Origin: Clostridia bacterium
GTDB taxonomy: Bacteria > Bacillota > Clostridia > UMGS1883
Assembly: GCA_017505525.1 (NCBI GenBank)
Contig: JAFVPB010000006.1
Coordinates: 1-58,689, forward strand
DNA length: 58,689 bases
Direction of reading: 5' to 3'
How positions within the stretch are numbered: position 1 is the first letter of the stretch; every line of letters begins with the position of its first letter. A program made the translations under genes and the position numbers. Of this stretch, positions 10,901 to 51,923 are shown piece by piece. The notes under the pieces were generated by a model, which searched no databases, was not told the origin of the DNA, and was given only the letters and a program-made list of their open reading frames with translations.

Positions 10901-11266
10901 CAGATTGCCGCAATTGAAAATATAGGCGACCGCTATGGAGTGGAGGAATCTTTTGAAGACCGATATGGAGAAATCCCAAACGAAACATATGCTCTTCTCG
11001 ATATACAGATGATTCGCACAGATGCGCAAAATTTAGGCATTAAGGAAATAAGCCATGCCGAGGGAGGAATTATATTCAAACTTGATAAAGTAACCCCCGA
11101 AATGGTTGATAAAGTGGCTTCGCTTGCATCGCGGCGCAGGGGCAAAATTCTTTTTGGAGCAGGAGACAACAGCTATATCCTGCTTCGCGAAAAGAACTTA
11201 AAAGCCAACGAGATAATTGAAAGTGTGAATATTATATTAAAGGACTTGCAAAATGAAAAAGAATGA
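7958..11266 (+). CDS. mfd: Transcription-repair coupling factor
   Basis: Mfd removes RNA polymerase stalled at DNA lesions and recruits UvrA. This 1102-residue protein has all modules: UvrB-like N-terminal domains (about 1-330), the RNA-polymerase-interaction domain (about 430-500, starting QLELGDYVVHNTHGIGRYLG), translocase motifs (Walker A CGDVGYGKTEV near 585, DEEQRFG near 685, SATPIPRT near 712, QLRGRVGRTNR near 855) and the C-terminal TRCF domain (about 950-1050). It starts 3 bases after pth and is cotranscribed. Confidence 0.97.
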   Translation: MNVLNTILATSKEIREITEKIGAKSFPLNISGASDSQKAHLIATVCASIDKKPFVVTYNEIQAKRLSDDLAYFLENKCVNIPPEAIVLYNVDAQNREMDNKRAAALGEFSGGKAAVVSIESLLHFVMPKNDFENMCLHFNYGGTFNVETLPDRLVEMGYSRVDVISDAGQFAIRGGIVDIYSPDSDMPVRMEFFGDEIDSVRYFDCETQLSTEKIKDVKILPVKSETARASMLSYLDDSYQIFLDEPQRVSESAKAVEWEIAENIKTLAEKNVEIAEKIHINSYNDIISEMKNSVVGIMNVLSAVPDYKVKTELSVTAKGLSSYSGNIEFFISDLMQWLKERQRVVILGGSTQRAKKIHEMLGERDIASRYFENVEELSDKYVTVTTGSITRGFEYPKDGLVVVSDREIFSAEKKKRRVKRDADTMKIKSADQLELGDYVVHNTHGIGRYLGIVRMKVNNVVKDYIKLEYRGEDYLYLPVGQLDSVSKYMGGENKTVRLNRMGSPEWANAKRKVRQNVEEMASRLVALYAERERSEGVKFSPDTPWQHDFEDQFPYEETEDQLISISEMKKDMESSRPMDRLLCGDVGYGKTEVAMRGAFKAVMEGYQVAYLVPTTILASQHYQNFVERMKEFPVTVRMLSRFCTPTESKKTLKMLQNGECDIVVGTHKLLSKNVIFKKLGFLIVDEEQRFGVTHKEKIKEMKKNVDVLTLSATPIPRTLHMAMIGIRDMSVLTSPPSDRYPVQTYVLEYNEAVCKNAIERELARGGQVYYLHNRVETIHKAAERVRALVPDARVGVAHGKMNETELDDVMMKVQDKEIDVLCCTTIIETGLDISNVNTIIIENADTLGLSQLYQLRGRVGRTNRLAYAYLTYKKNKMLDETAEKRLRAIREFTEFGSGFRIALRDLEIRGAGNVLGPEQHGFMASVGYDMYCTILEDAVNDAMGKPKREEKTETVIDLNVSAFIPDSYIPTSNLRIEAYKQIAAIENIGDRYGVEESFEDRYGEIPNETYALLDIQMIRTDAQNLGIKEISHAEGGIIFKLDKVTPEMVDKVASLASRRRGKILFGAGDNSYILLREKNLKANEIIESVNIILKDLQNEKE

Positions 11267-11319
11267 TGTATAATAAAACACAAACTTATATTTTCACAAA
11301 TGGAAGGAATGTTTTAAAC

Positions 11320-12504
11320 ATGAAAAAAAGAATTATATCTTTATTCGCATTAGTACTTGCTTTAAGTATGGCACTTTGCGGATGTGGCGGAAAAACTATT
11401 GAAACAGAAGAAAGCAAAGACCTTGATTCTTCTATAATTGCAACGGTAGAGGGGCAGAAAATTTCACAGGCTGACTATAACTTTATCTATAGTCTTGTTT
11501 ACAACAATATGAGTCAGTATTCAATGTACTATGGTGCAGATTGGGAAAACATGGAGATTGAAGAAGGCAAAACAATAGCTGAGTTTATGGAAGAGAACGC
11601 ACTCGACCAGGTTAAGCAGATGGCAATGGTTGTTGAACTTGCTAAAGAAAAGGGCATTACAGTTAAAGATATAAAAGAAGATGTTGAAAAGCAGAAAAAA
11701 GAAGTAATTGAAAGCTATCAGGGTGAAGACAAATATAAGGAGTTCCTTGTGGCTTCACATACAACGGATAAAGCTATCGACCGTTATCTTGAAATCAGCG
11801 CAATCTATGCGAAGTATTATGAAAATCTTACAGCTAAAGGCGGAGAGCTGAAGGTTGATACTAAAGAGCTTGAAAAGCAGTTCCTTGAAGACTACAAGGG
11901 TAAGTGGAGAGCTCAGCACATTTTAGTTTCAACTCAGGCACAGCAGGATGCAGAAGGCAAAGAAGTTCCTGGAAAAACTGATGAGGAAGCTAAGAAAATA
12001 GCTCTTGAAGTTATAGAAAAGCTTAACGCAGGCGAAGATTTTGATGCTCTTATCGAGCAGTATAATGAAGACCCCGGTTTAACAAAGGGTAACTACTATA
12101 TCTTCGGTACAGGCGAAATGGTTGAGCCATTTGAAAAAGCTACAGATGCTCTTAAAATTGGTGAATACACAAAAGAACCTGTTAAGACAGACTTTGGTTA
12201 TCATATAATCAAGAGATACGAAATCAACACCGAAATTCCTGAATTTGCACAGTTTAAGGAATCTAAGCTTCAGGAAAAAGCTATGGAGTTAATTACCAAA
12301 AAGGTTAAGGATGCAAAGGTTAAGGTTGAGAAAAAAGAACTCGAAGCTTATATGAAGAAGTGGGCAAAGGAAAGAGCTGCAGAAGCTAAGAAGGCAGAAG
12401 AAGAGGCTAAGAAGGCTCAGGAAGAAGCACAGAAGAATGCAGAAGCAGAACCTGCTGGCGATGCCAAGACAGAAGAAAAGGCTGAAGAGAAGAAAGCTGA
12501 ATAA
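11320..12504 (+). CDS. PrsA-like parvulin peptidyl-prolyl isomerase lipoprotein
   Basis: An extracytoplasmic foldase anchored as a lipoprotein. The signal peptide ends in lipobox LCGC with the modified Cys at residue 22. A SurA-like N-terminal region (about 35-180) is followed by a PpiC/parvulin domain (about 198-310; RAQHILVS and GYHIIKRYE are its edges). The C-terminal tail is rich in Lys, Glu and Ala and probably helical. Start at 11320 is supported by GGAAGGAA and by the signal peptide; an upstream frame would bury the signal sequence. It follows mfd closely and may share its transcript. Confidence 0.9.
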   Translation: MKKRIISLFALVLALSMALCGCGGKTIETEESKDLDSSIIATVEGQKISQADYNFIYSLVYNNMSQYSMYYGADWENMEIEEGKTIAEFMEENALDQVKQMAMVVELAKEKGITVKDIKEDVEKQKKEVIESYQGEDKYKEFLVASHTTDKAIDRYLEISAIYAKYYENLTAKGGELKVDTKELEKQFLEDYKGKWRAQHILVSTQAQQDAEGKEVPGKTDEEAKKIALEVIEKLNAGEDFDALIEQYNEDPGLTKGNYYIFGTGEMVEPFEKATDALKIGEYTKEPVKTDFGYHIIKRYEINTEIPEFAQFKESKLQEKAMELITKKVKDAKVKVEKKELEAYMKKWAKERAAEAKKAEEEAKKAQEEAQKNAEAEPAGDAKTEEKAEEKKAE

Positions 12505-12521
12505 TTAAAATTTGAATATTT

Positions 12522-12633
12522 TCAGGGCAGGGTGAAATTCCCGACCGGTGGTATAGTCCACGAGCCGAAGCATATGCTCAGGTTGATACAGTGAAATTCT
12601 GTAACCGACGGTAGAGTCCGGATGGAAGAAAAT
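12522..12633 (+). promoter_or_regulatory. FMN riboswitch (RFN element)
   Basis: The conserved FMN aptamer segments occur in order: AGGGCAGGGTGAAATTCCC, GACCGGTGGTATAGTCC, ACGAGCC, TTGATACAGTGAAATTCTG, and AACCGACGGTAGAGTCCGGATG. It lies directly upstream of ribU. A terminator at 12681 follows, which fits FMN-induced termination. Confidence 0.97.
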
Positions 12634-12680
12634 TTATAAAGGGATAATTAATTCCCATAGCCAAAAAGGCAAAGATTATA

Positions 12681-12720: not shown

Positions 12721-12738
12721 ATTTCAGAGGTGTATTGT

Positions 12739-13374
12739 ATGTCGAAAACGAAAAAAATGGTGTTTACCGCACTTATATGTGCGCTAAGCTTTGTTCTTAC
12801 AATGTTTGTGAAAATACCGATAAGCACAGTAGACTTTTTAAAGTACGACCCTAAAGATGTGATAATAGTTATTGCAGGCTTTATTTTCGGGCCGCTTACT
12901 ACGGTTGTTGTTACAATCATAGTTGCATTCATAGAAATGATAACAATAAGCTCCACAGGACCAATTGGCTTTTTAATGAACGTTATATCAACTGTTGCTT
13001 TTGCAACTGTTGCCGCTTCGATTTACAAAGTCAACCGCACAATGAAAGGTGCAATTCTTGCTCTTGTGATGGGCATAATTTCGCAAACTGCTGCAATGCT
13101 TTTATGGAATTATGCTATTACTCCGCTTTATATGCCGGGAGTAACCAGAGCAGACCTTGTAAAAATGCTCATCCCCGTATTTTTGCCGTTTAACCTTATA
13201 AAAAGCAGCGTTAATGCCGCACTCACACTTATTATTTATAAGCCTTTTGTAAGAGTGATGCATGGAATAGGACTTATAGAAAAAGAAAGCAGTTCAAAAT
13301 CTTATTTGCCTCTTTTAATAGCATCTGTAATCGTGATAGTGTTATGTATGGGGGCGGTTTTAATACTTAAATAG
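12739..13374 (+). CDS. ribU: Riboflavin ECF transporter substrate-binding (S) component
   Basis: A 211-residue integral membrane protein of the RibU family, with about six hydrophobic segments (residues about 8-28, 42-70, 77-100, 105-130, 145-170, 185-210). RibU binds riboflavin and uses a shared energising module encoded elsewhere. Assignment is strong because it follows an FMN riboswitch. Start ATG 12739 has AGAGG eight bases upstream; a GTG at 12730 lies inside that site. Its stop overlaps the end of convergent spoIIID by 8 bases. Confidence 0.93.
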   Translation: MSKTKKMVFTALICALSFVLTMFVKIPISTVDFLKYDPKDVIIVIAGFIFGPLTTVVVTIIVAFIEMITISSTGPIGFLMNVISTVAFATVAASIYKVNRTMKGAILALVMGIISQTAAMLLWNYAITPLYMPGVTRADLVKMLIPVFLPFNLIKSSVNAALTLIIYKPFVRVMHGIGLIEKESSSKSYLPLLIASVIVIVLCMGAVLILK

Positions 13375-14698: not shown

Positions 14699-14772
14699 TT
14701 GACAAAAATGCGCTGTTATGGTATATTATGAATGTAATACAAACGAAAACAAAACCGAAACAAAACGAAAGT
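14699..14772 (+). promoter_or_regulatory. Promoter and candidate DeoR operators of the sugar operon
   Basis: TTGACA (14699-14704), 17 bases, TATATT (14722-14727). Directly downstream, about 14738-14770 contains AACGAAAAC, ACCGAAAC and AACGAAAG in tandem at 10-12 base spacing. This resembles A-rich direct-repeat sites of Gram-positive DeoR repressors. Confidence 0.7.
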
Positions 14773-14788
14773 GAATGGAGATGTTAAA

Positions 14789-15493
14789 ATGTATAAAGGT
14801 TTAGAAATTAAACCCCCGTTTTTCGAGATTGGGCCAAAGGCGTTCCTTTATGGCGAAAAGATGCTTGCTCTTGCAAAAGTAATCGATAAAACCGCTATGA
14901 AATACGACCTTGATGTTATCGTAACTCCGCAGTATACCGATATTCAGTTGCTCGCAGAAAACACCGAAAGAATTTTAGTGTTTGCTCAGCATATGGACTA
15001 CCTCACTCCGGGTCGCGGTCTTGGCAGTGTTCTTCCCGAAGCAGTTAAGGCAGCAGGCGCAGTAGGTGTTATGCTTAACCACGCTGAAAAGCCACTTACA
15101 ATGGAAGAAATCGAAAAGACTATTGCACGTGCTGATGAAGTTGGTCTTGGTACAATCGTTTGTGCCGATACTGTTGAAGACGTTAAGAAGATTGCAAAGA
15201 TGGGTCCCAACCTTATCGTTGCAGAGCCTACCGATTTAATTGGAACAGGCCAGACAAGCGATAGCAACTATGTTATCGAAACAATCAAGACTGTTAACGA
15301 AATCAATCCCGATATAATGGTGCTTCAGGGCGCTGGAATATCAAACGGACAGGACGTTTACAACACAATCAAGCTTGGTGCTCAGGCAACAGGTACAACA
15401 AGCGGTATTATGAAGAGCGACAGACCTTATGAAATGGTTGAGGAAATGCTCTATAATCTCCGCAAAGCTTGGGATGAATTGCATGGTTGCTGA
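14789..15493 (+). CDS. Archaeal-type triosephosphate-isomerase-like sugar-phosphate isomerase
   Basis: A 234-residue TIM-family protein. It resembles archaeal triosephosphate isomerases (short, about 225 residues) more than the bacterial enzyme: FAQHMDYLTPGRG, VLPEAVKAAGAVGVMLNHAEK (catalytic His, about 95), IVAEPTDLIGTG (catalytic Glu, about 145) and VLQGAGISNGQDV. Retained His and Glu support isomerase activity. In this setting it more likely acts on a dedicated sugar phosphate (compare the erythrulose-phosphate isomerases of tetritol pathways) than on glycolytic triose phosphate; that is inference. Start 14789 has GGAGA upstream. It is first in a DeoR-controlled operon. Confidence 0.8.
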   Translation: MYKGLEIKPPFFEIGPKAFLYGEKMLALAKVIDKTAMKYDLDVIVTPQYTDIQLLAENTERILVFAQHMDYLTPGRGLGSVLPEAVKAAGAVGVMLNHAEKPLTMEEIEKTIARADEVGLGTIVCADTVEDVKKIAKMGPNLIVAEPTDLIGTGQTSDSNYVIETIKTVNEINPDIMVLQGAGISNGQDVYNTIKLGAQATGTTSGIMKSDRPYEMVEEMLYNLRKAWDELHGC

Positions 15494-15601
15494 AAAACGG
15501 CACCGAACGCATAAGGCGTGAGATAATAATTAGGAGAATGTGTTGTTTGGGGAAAGAGTAATGCGGAAAAAATTCGCTCAAGGCGAATTTTGATTGTATA
15601 C

Positions 15602-15718
15602 GCCTTATGCTATGCATGAACTTCGCCTCTCGCTGTACCTATGTACAGCTTCGGGTAACCCACGGCAAGCCGTGGCTCAGTTCATACATTCTGCACCATT
15701 TTTGAGCAACCTTTCCTA
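15602..15718 (+). repeat. Compact copy (C) of the three-way-junction repeat
   Basis: This is homologous to the larger elements at 19906-20257 and 49851-50198. Shared strings are ACTTCGCCTCTCGC, CTTCGGGTAACC, GGCTCAGTT and TTCTG. The outer helix here pairs ATGAACT with AGTTCAT, whereas the others pair ACAAACT with AGTTTGT. The inner arm is only TGTAC-CTAT-GTACA, replacing about 190 bases. The third arm is CCACGG-CAAG-CCGTGG, with no sequence match to the others but equal function as a stem. Confidence 0.8.
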
Positions 15719-15853
15719 CTCGTGTCTTTTCAAAAGTCTGAAAAGCAGCACCGACGGCAAAACACTTAAAAAGTAGCACTAAATAAAAAATCGAAATGAG
15801 AAATTTGGAATTCGAAATAAATTTGGATTTTTGCCTTGGCGAAAATCGTCCAT

Positions 15854-15888
15854 CATTCCGCATTCCACATTCTGCATTTTGCACTTAA
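15854..15888 (+). repeat. Degenerate 7-bp tandem repeat
   Basis: Successive heptamers are CATTCCG, CATTCCA, CATTCTG, CATTTTG and CACTTAA, ending near the ribosome site of the SIS gene. Confidence 0.65.
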
Positions 15889-15909
15889 TCAGTAAAGGAC
15901 TACATAACT

Positions 15910-19816: not shown

Positions 19817-19880
19817 AAGGTGATGGATAAAAAGTCCAGACCGCAAAAAGGCAACGAATATATTAATTATAAATAGTTCA

Positions 19881-19923
19881 AAGAATGAGGTTTTTCAAAT
19901 TATTGTTGAAAAATCTCATTCTT
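19881..19923 (+). terminator. Hairpin after rbr
   Basis: AAGAATGAG-G-TTTTTCAA pairs with TTGAAAAA-T-CTCATTCTT (17 of 18 positions). A short T-rich tail follows. The 3' arm is shared with the upstream edge of repeat element A. Confidence 0.6.
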
Positions 19924-20257
19924 CAATTTTTCTATATTTTAAAGCCTTTTTGCTACGAACAAACTTCGCCTCTCGCACGTCGCAAGGCTCGCTGAGGTTT
20001 AAGTTTTAATAAAACTTAAACTTGCCGCTCGTTTGCTCCTTTTCCCCTTAAAGTCTTGCGACTTTCGGGGACCCCGAAAAGCAGACTATGCTTTTTGGGG
20101 AGAAGGAAAAATAAAGCATAGTGCGAATGTTTTGCTTTTTAGCAAAACGAAGCATCGTCTGCTTTGTTTTGACGTTGTACGCCTTCGGGTAACCTGTAAA
20201 TACCTGCTATACAGGTATTTACAGCTCAGTTTGTCCGTTCTGAACATTTTCTCCTAT
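19906..20257 (+). repeat. Structured repeat element, copy A
   Basis: This ~350-base element is about 90-95% identical over its ~310-base core to the reverse complement of 49851-50198. The outer helix is ACAAACT (19960-19966) with AGTTTGT (20228-20234). Inner stems include GTTTAAGTTTT/AAAACTTAAAC, AAAGTC/GACTTT, TCGGGG/CCCCGA and GTTTTGCT/AGCAAAAC. A closing ACGTC...GACGT bounds the large arm. The hairpin after CTTCGGGTAACC is TGTAAATACCTG/CAGGTATTTACA, unlike the sequence at that place in the other copies. No ORF, transposase or clear terminal repeats are seen. Confidence 0.85.
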
Positions 20258-20264
20258 CCCCTTA

Positions 20265-20302
20265 AAAGAAGCCTGAAAACAAAAGTTTTCAGGCTTCTTT
20301 TT
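20265..20302 (+). terminator. Terminator
   Basis: AAAGAAGCCTGAAAAC and GTTTTCAGGCTTCTTT pair perfectly around AAAA, with further T residues. It would end any transcript of repeat element A. Confidence 0.9.
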
Positions 20303-20327
20303 CGTAATCTCAGACAGAGGGAGGACT

Positions 20328-24634: not shown

Positions 24635-24709
24635 GGCCCGTTGGTCAAGCGGTTAAGACACCGCCCTTTCACGGCGGTAACACGAGTTCAAATCTCGTAC
24701 GGGTCACCA
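24635..24709 (+). tRNA. tRNA-Glu (TTC)
   Basis: The full cloverleaf is visible: acceptor GGCCCGT/ACGGGTC, anticodon loop CTTTCAC between CCGCC and GGCGG, T-arm ACGAGTTCAAATCTCGT and encoded CCA. Confidence 0.95.
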
Positions 24710-24712
24710 TAA

Positions 24713-24789
24713 GGGCTTTTAGCTCAGTTGGTTAGAGCAACCGGCTCATAACCGGTCGGTCCGGGGTTCGAGTCCCTGAAGGCCCACCA
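24713..24789 (+). tRNA. tRNA-Met or tRNA-Ile2 (CAT anticodon)
   Basis: Acceptor GGGCTTT/GAAGGCCC, D-arm AGCTCAGTTGGTTAGAGC, anticodon loop CTCATAA between CCGG and CCGG, T-loop GTTCGAGTC, encoded CCA. CAT reads Met; the CATAACC context also occurs in tRNA-Ile2 whose C34 is changed to lysidine, so the identity is open. Confidence 0.92.
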
Positions 24790-49812: not shown

Positions 49813-49850
49813 TTTAAAATGTTTTGCAAATAAATTGATGAAAAAGTATA

Positions 49851-50198
49851 ATAGGAAAAAATGCTTCAGAAAGGACAAACTGAGCTGAGAAAGCCTGTGT
49901 CAGGATTTCTCAGGTTACCCGAAGCGGCATCAAAACAAAGCAGGCGATGCTTCGTTTTGCTTAAAAGCAAAACATTCGCACTATGCTTTATTTTTCCTTC
50001 TCCCCAAAAAGCCATTGTCTGCTTTTCGGGGTCCCCGAAAGTCGCAAGACTTTAAGGGGAAAAGGAGCAAACGAGCGGCAAGTTTAAGTTTTATAAAAAC
50101 TTAAACCTTAGCGAGCCTTGCGACGTGTGAGAGGCGAAGTTTGTTCGTAGCAAAAAGGCATAAAGACTACGAAAAATCTAATAAATAAGATTTTTCAA
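49851..50198 (-). repeat. Structured repeat element, copy B (inverted relative to A)
   Basis: Read on the minus strand it matches element A (19906-20257) almost base for base from GCCTTTTTGCTACG to CCTAT, with mostly single-base differences. Both sides of the GTTTAAGTTTT stem and the GTTTTGCT stem are conserved. The variable hairpin after CTTCGGGTAACC is GAGAAA-T-CCTG/CAGG-C-TTTCTC, wholly different from A and C yet still a stem. The outer helix ACAAACT/AGTTTGT is as in A. Confidence 0.85.
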
Positions 50199-50436
50199 CC
50201 AAATTAACACTTTTTAAAATTACAATATATCGGCAAGTAGTTTTGATAACGCCTTTTTGCGATCTGGACTTTTTTTACATCCCCAGTTATTGCGTTTTAG
50301 TTGATGGTGGATATCATTATCATAATGAAAGAGGGTAACTTTTCGCATGTTGGAGAAAGTTTGCGAATATATTGGAACGTTGGAAAGGAGCATATCATTT
50401 TTATTAAACAAATTATATTTTGCAACATTCTCCCTG

Positions 50437-50720: not shown

Positions 50721-51923
50721 ATGAGTAAGATAGTTTTCTTTGGTATTCCAGCGCATGGGCATACAAATCCTACCTTGGAAATTGTAAAAGAGTTGGTTTC
50801 CCGCGGACACGAGGTTTGGTATTATTCATATATCATTATGCGTGAAAAAATCGAGTCGGCAGGTGCAAATTTTATATCCTGCGACAATTATGATGCCGAG
50901 CAGAGGCTTAGTGCTAAAGATGCTACACGTGTAGGAAAAGATCTGGCGTTTTCCACAAAGATATTGGTAGATACCACATTGGCACTCGATGATAAGGTTT
51001 GCAACGATATGGCAGAGCTTAAGCCTGATTGTATCGTTGCAGATTCCATGGCACTATGGGGGAAAGCCGTTGCACTAAAGCTCGGTATTCCTTTTGTTTC
51101 TTCAACAACAACCTTTGCCTTTAATCAGCACTCGGCAAAGATTATTAAACAAAGCATCGGAGATTTGTTAAAGATGATTTTCGCAATGCCAAAAACATCA
51201 AAACAAGTCAAAAGACTAAAGGATAAGGGGTATCCAGTTAAGAACATTCTTGATATTATCGGTAATGACGATAAAACACATACCATTGTATATACATCTC
51301 GCGAGTTTCAACCATTCTCAGAAACTTTTTCGGAAAAGTACGCATTTGTGGGACCCTCAATTCGTACTGCAACTGATAAAATAGAGAAAAACAGGGATAA
51401 ACTGATTTATATATCCATGGGAACTGTTAATAACGATATGATGCCTTTTTATAAAAAGTGTATATCCGCTTTTAAAAACACCGATTATCAGGTAATTATG
51501 TCTGTTGGTAATTTGGTATCTGTCAATGATTTTGGAGAACTTCCTGAAAACATATCAGTTTATTCGCATGTTGACCAAATTGCTGTTTTGGAAAAAGCTG
51601 ATGTGTTTGTATCACACTGCGGAATGAATAGCGTTAGCGAGAGCTTGTATTTTGAAGTTCCGCTTGTTATGCTTCCGCAGACGGCAGAACAAAAAGGTGT
51701 TGCCGAGCGGGTAGCGCAACTTGGTGCAGGATTAAAACCTGACAAAAGCGATGGTGATTCTCTTTTAAAAGCTATAAATCAAATTTTCAGAGTTAATACA
51801 TACAAGGAAAATGCGAAAAAAATTGCTCTCGGGTTTTCAAATTCTTCTGGAGTAAGAGGCGCAGCAGACAAAATTATGCAGGTTTGCACTGCACAAAACG
51901 ATGGAAATGATGCGATGAAATGA
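50721..51923 (+). CDS. UGT/MGT-family glycosyltransferase
   Basis: A 400-residue GT-B fold enzyme of the macrolide glycosyltransferase type. The N-terminal acceptor domain begins IVFFGIPAHGHTNPTLEIVKEL with the catalytic His (about 13). The C-terminal donor domain has ISMGTVNNDMMPFYKKC and the nucleotide-sugar motif VFVSHCGMNSVSESLYFEVPLVMLP (about 291-315). It probably glycosylates a small hydrophobic molecule, for instance to inactivate an antibiotic such as a macrolide, or to make a glycolipid; the acceptor is unknown. Confidence 0.87.
   Translation: MSKIVFFGIPAHGHTNPTLEIVKELVSRGHEVWYYSYIIMREKIESAGANFISCDNYDAEQRLSAKDATRVGKDLAFSTKILVDTTLALDDKVCNDMAELKPDCIVADSMALWGKAVALKLGIPFVSSTTTFAFNQHSAKIIKQSIGDLLKMIFAMPKTSKQVKRLKDKGYPVKNILDIIGNDDKTHTIVYTSREFQPFSETFSEKYAFVGPSIRTATDKIEKNRDKLIYISMGTVNNDMMPFYKKCISAFKNTDYQVIMSVGNLVSVNDFGELPENISVYSHVDQIAVLEKADVFVSHCGMNSVSESLYFEVPLVMLPQTAEQKGVAERVAQLGAGLKPDKSDGDSLLKAINQIFRVNTYKENAKKIALGFSNSSGVRGAADKIMQVCTAQNDGNDAMK

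Follow-up and report, generated by a model that had tools for sequence, protein, structure and literature searches.

The three-way junction at 15602-15718 of the window (the whole stretch of DNA analysed, 58,689 nucleotides of a Clostridia bacterium draft genome) is the core of a larger element, and this element is probably one of a new family of mobile elements in the chromosomes of Clostridia, non-coding and foldable, which take up positions at gene 3' ends. Its mobility is likely to be non-autonomous, with the element being recognised through its fold. The dispersal, placement, orientation, structure and copy-specific ends of the copies were observed directly, and the mobile-element reading is drawn from empty sites, near-identical copies, direct repeats, tandem arrays and decayed copies.

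Structure of the element

The full element in this copy (copy C) is approximately 227 nt long, 15485-15711, and the 117-base copy reported in the initial annotation is real but represents its three-way core, in the 3' part of the fold, with limits set too narrowly to take in the whole of P1, P3 and P4. There are five helices in the element, and 5' of the copy C core lie two further helices and one hairpin. From 5' to 3', copy C consists of the P1 arm, a P3 strand, a poorly conserved loop of about 50 nt between this strand and P4, P4 itself, the second P3 strand, the core and the P1 partner; the core runs from P2 through TCGCCTCTCG, hp2, CTTCGGGTAAC, hp3 and CTC to the closing P2 strand, with TCGCCTCTCG, CTTCGGGTAAC and CTC being conserved. 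Family members are about 200-300 nt in size, or about 450 nt with a long arm. The features are:

14771-15493, + strand: upstream gene, resembling triosephosphate isomerase (Pfam TIM); its final codons and stop make up the P1 arm
15485-15500, + strand: left end (LE), 5' arm of the outer stem P1, GGTTGCTGAAAAACGG (from sequence reading)
15485-15500 / 15696-15711, + strand: outer stem GGTTGCTgAAAAAcGG / CCaTTTTTgAGCAACC
15509-15519, + strand: P3 5' strand GCATAAGGCGT (from sequence and folding)
15569-15591, + strand: P4 hairpin AAAATTCGC-tcaag-GCGAATTTT, inside P3 (arms 15569-15577 / 15583-15591)
15600-15610, + strand: P3 3' strand ACGCCTTATGC, pairing with GCATAAGGCGT
15616-15622, + strand: P2 5' strand ATGAACT, with double changes in 5 of 7 pairs class-wide
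15623-15649, + strand: conserved TCGCCTCTC and hairpin hp2, GCTGTAC-ctat-GTACAGC; an arm of ~190 nt instead in copies A and B
15649-15660, + strand: conserved CTTCGGGTAACC, in which GG pairs with CC from TCGCC (internal loop; supported by two double changes)
15660-15675, + strand: hairpin hp3, CCACGG-caag-CCGTGG (arms 15660-15665 / 15670-15675)
15679-15685, + strand: P2 3' strand AGTTCAT, with conserved CTC before it
15696-15711, + strand: right end (RE), P1 3' arm CCATTTTTGAGCAACC, complementary to the sequence with which the upstream gene ends
15738-15758, + strand: partial direct repeat of LE, CTGAAAAGCAGCACCGACGGC (compare CTGAAAAACGGCACCGAACGC)
19819-20303 (copy limits also given as ~19819-20261), + strand: copy A, with the ~190-nt arm, following a rubrerythrin stop codon by 3 nt (gene end 19816)
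49848-50284, - strand: copy B, with the ~190-nt arm

The window thus holds three copies, and the P2 and hp3 helices, the base changes in them and the replacement of the hp2 hairpin of copy C by a ~190-nt arm in copies A and B were all as first described. The shared strings ACTTCGCCTCTCGC (15620-15633) and CTTCGGGTAACC were likewise found where they had been placed, and each occurs three times in the window compared to 0.07-0.20 times expected by chance, a number never reached in shuffles; the claim that they are kept in all three copies holds for their position but not to the letter, the first string having one mismatch in copy B (ACTTCGCCTCTCAC). Between the element and the SIS gene, at 15790-15895, lies a further repeat that is unrelated to the element (..CATTCCGCATTCCACATTCTGCATTTTGCAC..), and congener G004 has a similar one at its empty site (L271).

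In other copies the same partners are paired using different sequences, in P3 (GCAAAAAGGC/GCCTTTTTGC, GTTTATTGGC/GCCAATAAAC, CACAAAGCA/TGCTTTGTG), in P4, which covaries (GAAAAATC/GATTTTTC, GAAATCCGTA/TACGGATTTC, CAAATTCTGAA/TTCAGAATTTG), and in P1 (AAGGATG/CATCCTT, GGAATG/CATTCC, AGGGAATG/CATTCCCT), with the element ends being of the GGGGATG../..CATCCCC type. Some copies other than A and B also carry the long arm of ~190 nt in the hp2 position, certain copies are without hp2/hp3 or without the P3-P4 arm, and minimal forms comprise hardly more than both ends, or one left end alone (L082-L085, comprising versions with deletions and one isolated left end). The ~190-nt arm (19976-20183 and 49925-50127 in the window, also in several other copies) is hairpin-rich and looks like a separate module replacing hp2. 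Three copies from G002 and G004 (L072, L073 and L077) contain another interspersed repeat, AAGGCTCCCTTGTGTAAAGGGAGCTGTCACGAAGTGACTGAGGGATTG, in the P3-P4 loop, a repeat nested in a repeat, and one locus (L316, G137:C2) is a mosaic array repeating only the three-way core and ends, with P3 and P4 missing.

Covariation of the helices

Among 19 core sequences from the genus, aligned with plain MAFFT, 96.0% of cells were paired and 31 were double-changed, compared to 8.4 in shuffles. For 70 distinct cores from many genera across the class, 96.5% of pair cells were paired and 173 were double-changed (35.8 +/- 4.5 when shuffled, with register shifts coming nowhere near), although these class-wide counts come from a model-fitted alignment, which leans towards structure. 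RNAalifold gave an extra CC:GG pair linking both conserved strings, with two double changes. All of the helices of the element covary. The initial annotation had proposed covarying stems around an invariant junction with arms that can be swapped, and this extends over the whole bacterial class, with covariation persisting when more copies were aligned (13 of the 17 core pairs were double-changed in the 70 sequences).

Distribution in Clostridia

The source genome (a 2.4 Mb draft) contains 58 BLAST pieces of the element, and a covariance model of the core found copies in all 6 congeners, in 19 of 21 family genomes and in 25 of 28 order genomes. Across the class sample, copies were found in 46 of 291 genomes and 28 of 180 genera, with 1-50 copies detected per carrier genome, all of these genomes being draft assemblies in which contig ends often fall at copies. 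The source genome was the only match in a phylum sample of 398 genomes. Named carriers are metagenome-assembled Clostridia, Oscillospiraceae and one Ruminococcus, and the metagenomes include those of goat, deer and water buffalo. The viral contigs (2.9 million), phages and plasmids searched yielded zero copies, which is odd for a free transposon and counts against the mobile reading. Two copies from two species (L014, G000:C32:~18.7 kb, and L055, G004:C17) lie behind an apparent phage major capsid gene, perhaps that of a domesticated prophage.

Placement behind stop codons, and attached terminators

The most telling feature, missed by the initial annotation, is the position of the element at stop codons in the gene's own direction. 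A sufficient left flank was available for 131 distinct copies, 115 of which have close by the end of a same-strand ORF of 70 or more codons. In 92 of these 115 (80%) the stop codon fell no more than 20 nt before or 15 nt behind LE, compared to 10 of 105 in a mirror-image control on the other side and about 19% for a uniform spread. Copy B is an exception, its left neighbour (50721-51923, + strand) being divergent. The orientation of the downstream gene was mixed (41:43, for copies with a sense left neighbour).

In some copies the gene runs into the element itself. The LE of copy C carries the final two codons and stop of the upstream gene, GGT TGC TGA, with the TGA at 15491-15493, and the P1 left arm is likewise formed from last codons and stop in L076 (AAG GCT TGA) and in L111 (GAC AGA TAA, before an apparent tpiA). 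The pairing of LE with RE is copy-specific, at -16.0 kcal/mol for a copy's own ends compared to -12.3 (-11.7 to -12.8) for swapped ends. A perfect 8-bp hairpin was present within 90 nt 3' of 71 of 145 copies but in only 4 of 243 control segments, and 50 of the 71 had a T-rich tail; about half of the copies are followed by an intrinsic-terminator-like hairpin, as is copy A (from ~20265). We also considered an attenuator, in which RE would pair alternately with LE or with the 5' arm of the terminator; this is possible for some copies, but as the alternative pairing is, by eye, clearly absent in others the idea was not adopted.

The main rival to the mobile-element reading is that the element is a cis-acting 3'-UTR RNA whose sense fold stabilises the mRNA, couples the termination of translation and transcription, or blocks 3' exonucleases. 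The strictly sense placement could equally reflect such a function, and this counts against the mobile reading. The closed outer stem containing the stop codon, the attached terminator hairpins and the strong covariation also speak for the 3'-UTR RNA. Similar 3'-UTR roles have been proposed for REP elements. A lowering of translation is reported for REPs that lie no more than 15 nt from a stop codon (PMC12306157). Against this, the host genes are unrelated and there are empty and decayed sites, and the fold of the sense strand, described below, also speaks against it. We regard a 3'-UTR RNA as a possible but rather unlikely explanation for the family, although such a role could coexist with mobility.

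Which strand folds

An A.C mismatch on the gene strand is a G.U pair on the opposite strand, and if the mRNA fold were selected, G.U should exceed A.C on the gene strand. The reverse was found, as the non-Watson-Crick cells of the distinct stems P1, P2, P3 and P4 on the gene strand comprised 66 A.C and 32 G.U (G.U/A.C of 6/16 in P3, 11/9 in P4, 3/3 in P2 and 12/38 in the outer P1), counts which are not independent since the copies are related, and this argues against selection on an mRNA fold. One hp2 column pair (38/77) is A.C in 21 of 83 rows and otherwise shows all four Watson-Crick types. Folding is stronger for the opposite strand in 119 of 120 copies, part of which is explained by base composition; with shuffle control, z-scores favoured the opposite strand in two of the three copies tested (-5.0 vs -2.8 and -6.1 vs -4.2) and the sense strand in the third (-4.3, vs -3.7 for the opposite strand). 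The sequence of the conserved loops is rich in pyrimidines on the sense strand and in purines on the opposite strand (CGAGAGGCGAAG, GGUUACCCGAAG).

We take the wobble and fold data to be good evidence against a function of the sense RNA alone; for a fold at the level of DNA or of the opposite strand, the evidence they give is moderate. The initial annotation had suggested a conserved RNA or cruciform DNA, and of these the RNA is the less supported (A.C exceeding G.U on the gene strand) while foldable DNA fits better. A fold of the opposite strand might also belong to an RNA that acts in trans, is made from the strand opposite the upstream gene and ends at the stop codon of this gene, which the better fold, the z-scores of two copies and the purine-rich conserved loops would suit. 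We consider this improbable: near-identical dispersed copies have no common flank on the side where its promoter would be required, a promoter-like site is absent from that strand around copy C, the third z-score favours sense, and a convergent neighbouring gene is not preferred.

Signs of movement

The junction occupied by copy C is empty in congeners G001 and G004, and occupied in G000, G005 and G002, with the G002 copy having different stems. LE is present in the occupied orthologues and absent from the empty ones (L269, L271), and the upstream gene ends in ..HGC* or ..NGR* when the site is occupied and in ..DELH* or ..DECNA* when it is empty. The empty G001 site has one copy of a short sequence which is found twice in occupied sites (compare 15738-15758). 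Eleven near-identical copies were found at unrelated loci in G160, all with a closely similar spacer and terminator at their end (one of these terminators having a compensated pair), further near-identical copies lie at unrelated loci in G078, and G022 has tandem arrays with a period of 242 nt. This combination of dispersed, tandem, deleted and missing copies is a pattern typical of mobile DNA.

Direct repeats between LE and the right flank were copy-specific (mean score 36.0 for own flanks vs 18.4 swapped, the top scores coming from tandem units), and in L097 and L125 they take in codons and stop of the host gene. Their lengths lie between ~14 and more than 50 nt, and they take in a portion of the element. 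A simple target-site duplication was considered but not adopted, the direct repeats being real, yet with lengths and limits that define no single size; neither a fixed target duplication length nor a target sequence was definable, which counts against the mobile reading. In G160 the flanks of some copies, such as L301, pair with each other (AAAAAATGGGG/CCCCATTTTTT), as they would after the opening of a native terminator, but at the ACP gene the native terminator seen in G112 is missing in G160 rather than displaced, a further point against.

None of the copies inspected encoded a transposase or recombinase or was an ORF-bearing version, and this too counts against the mobile reading. The Y1 transposase (RAYT, PF01797) was present in 15 of 18 carrier genomes and absent from G000, G022 and G304, and reverse transcriptase (RVT_1, PF00078) was absent from 12 of the 18, including the source genome, G160, G078, G022, G027, G304 and G000, although such absences rest on drafts, which may lack genes, and past enzymes may have been lost. 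A resident Y1 transposase or reverse transcriptase is not required. A Y1-transposase-like frame lies on the opposite strand ~130 nt from one copy (L312, G182:C6:54231-54711), possibly by chance. A group IIC-like or retron-like RNA copied by a resident reverse transcriptase would agree with an element that inserts at gene ends and terminators, keeps one orientation and has a structured RNA-like body, but it is very improbable and is largely refuted by the lack of RVT_1, barring an enzyme missing from the drafts or an unrecognised reverse transcriptase fold, and no match to an intron or other RNA family in Rfam beyond chance was found for it, either in the window or with the element at relaxed threshold.

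A proposed mode of spread

Taking the mobile-element reading further, we suggest that the element would move as DNA, with a single strand, more likely the one opposite to the gene, folding into the branched structure, and that a trans-acting host enzyme may recognise this folded strand through its conserved junction loops. The element would then insert into, or replace, the terminator region behind a stop codon, where LE and RE would pair so that the gene would still terminate in a closed stem and terminator. Such a re-formed gene end would render insertions nearly harmless, and may be the reason for the placement pattern; the compensatory changes may reflect selection for foldability during spread and afterwards for a harmless 3' end. 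The complete scheme, in which an enzyme that is neither Y1 nor a recognisable reverse transcriptase would spread the element to intrinsic terminators and stops via one foldable strand of DNA, with RE fitted to the end of the host gene, is put forward tentatively and we hold it to be doubtful as a whole.

This would be a class-wide repeat family of gut Clostridia at gene 3' ends, with up to 50 detected copies per genome and with placement rules that are exact and testable. If mobile, it requires an enzyme not yet recognised; if functional, it would couple the two endings, of translation and of transcription, in many operons, such as that of apparent phosphoglycerate kinase and triosephosphate isomerase. 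Either way, the element is missing from the genome annotation of its carriers.

Comparison with known families

A search of the window against Rfam 15 at gathering scores gave only FMN, Gut-1 and two tRNAs, and the best hit to the element itself at a relaxed threshold had an E of 0.43 and 19 bits, against a cut-off of 216, so that known RNA families, including introns and ribozymes, were rejected. An HDV-like pseudoknot was also rejected, the required upstream P1 strand being missing by eye. The FMN riboswitch (12514-12637, + strand, 119.6 bits) lies just behind one ORF (11263-12504) and before another (12730-13374), and the Gut-1 RNA (RF01706; 24822-24897, + strand) is directly behind two tRNA genes (24635-24786). 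The copies fit no RNA family in Rfam 15, and they appear to form a new family of small repeats that are mobile; a description of such an element in Clostridia was not found in the literature searched.

Integron attC sites have a foldable single DNA strand with conserved unpaired bases among variable stems and lie directly behind stop codons, all of which the element resembles, but it is found outside cassette arrays and attC consensus boxes were not recognised by eye. Group IIC introns insert at intrinsic terminators in one direction, as the element does, but the element needs no reverse transcriptase and does not match intron models. The terminal inverted repeats typical of MITEs are present, LE and RE being complementary in a copy-specific manner. 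MITEs also have a target duplication of fixed length; the direct repeats of the element are copy-specific and of variable size, ~14 to more than 50 nt, with part of the element inside them. A full-length relative carrying a transposase gene, a further mark of MITEs, was not seen among the copies inspected.

The folded single-stranded ends of IS200/IS605 elements are recognised by a Y1 enzyme, which they need, and no larger target duplications are made (PMC2817692); recognition of a folded single strand would be shared by our element, which differs in its direct repeats of ~14-50 nt and in its presence in G000, G022 and G304, which lack Y1. REP/BIME sequences are single palindromes of 20-40 nt with a GTAG/CGTC-type head and a Y1 (RAYT) transposase (PMC2817692, PMC12306157), and like the element they are extragenic and multicopy at gene 3' ends, some within 15 nt of the stop, and tandem or mosaic (PMC2817692, PMC12306157), but the element has a branched fold of ~227 nt and no GTAG-type head, and the same three genomes carry it without Y1. 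BOX and SPRITE of Streptococcus pneumoniae are short and interspersed, with modular swappable middles, pairing ends and presumed non-autonomous mobility, and SPRITE resembles a rho-independent terminator (PMC3049150). The comparison here is by architecture (interspersed, swappable middle, pairing ends; PMC3049150). Our element is placed sense behind stops, has a covarying multi-branch core in 28 sampled genera, and in some copies travels together with a terminator. The family is thus of a kind close to BOX, SPRITE and REP/BIME, and differs from them in its size, its fold, its sense placement at stop codons, its co-travelling terminator and its breadth.
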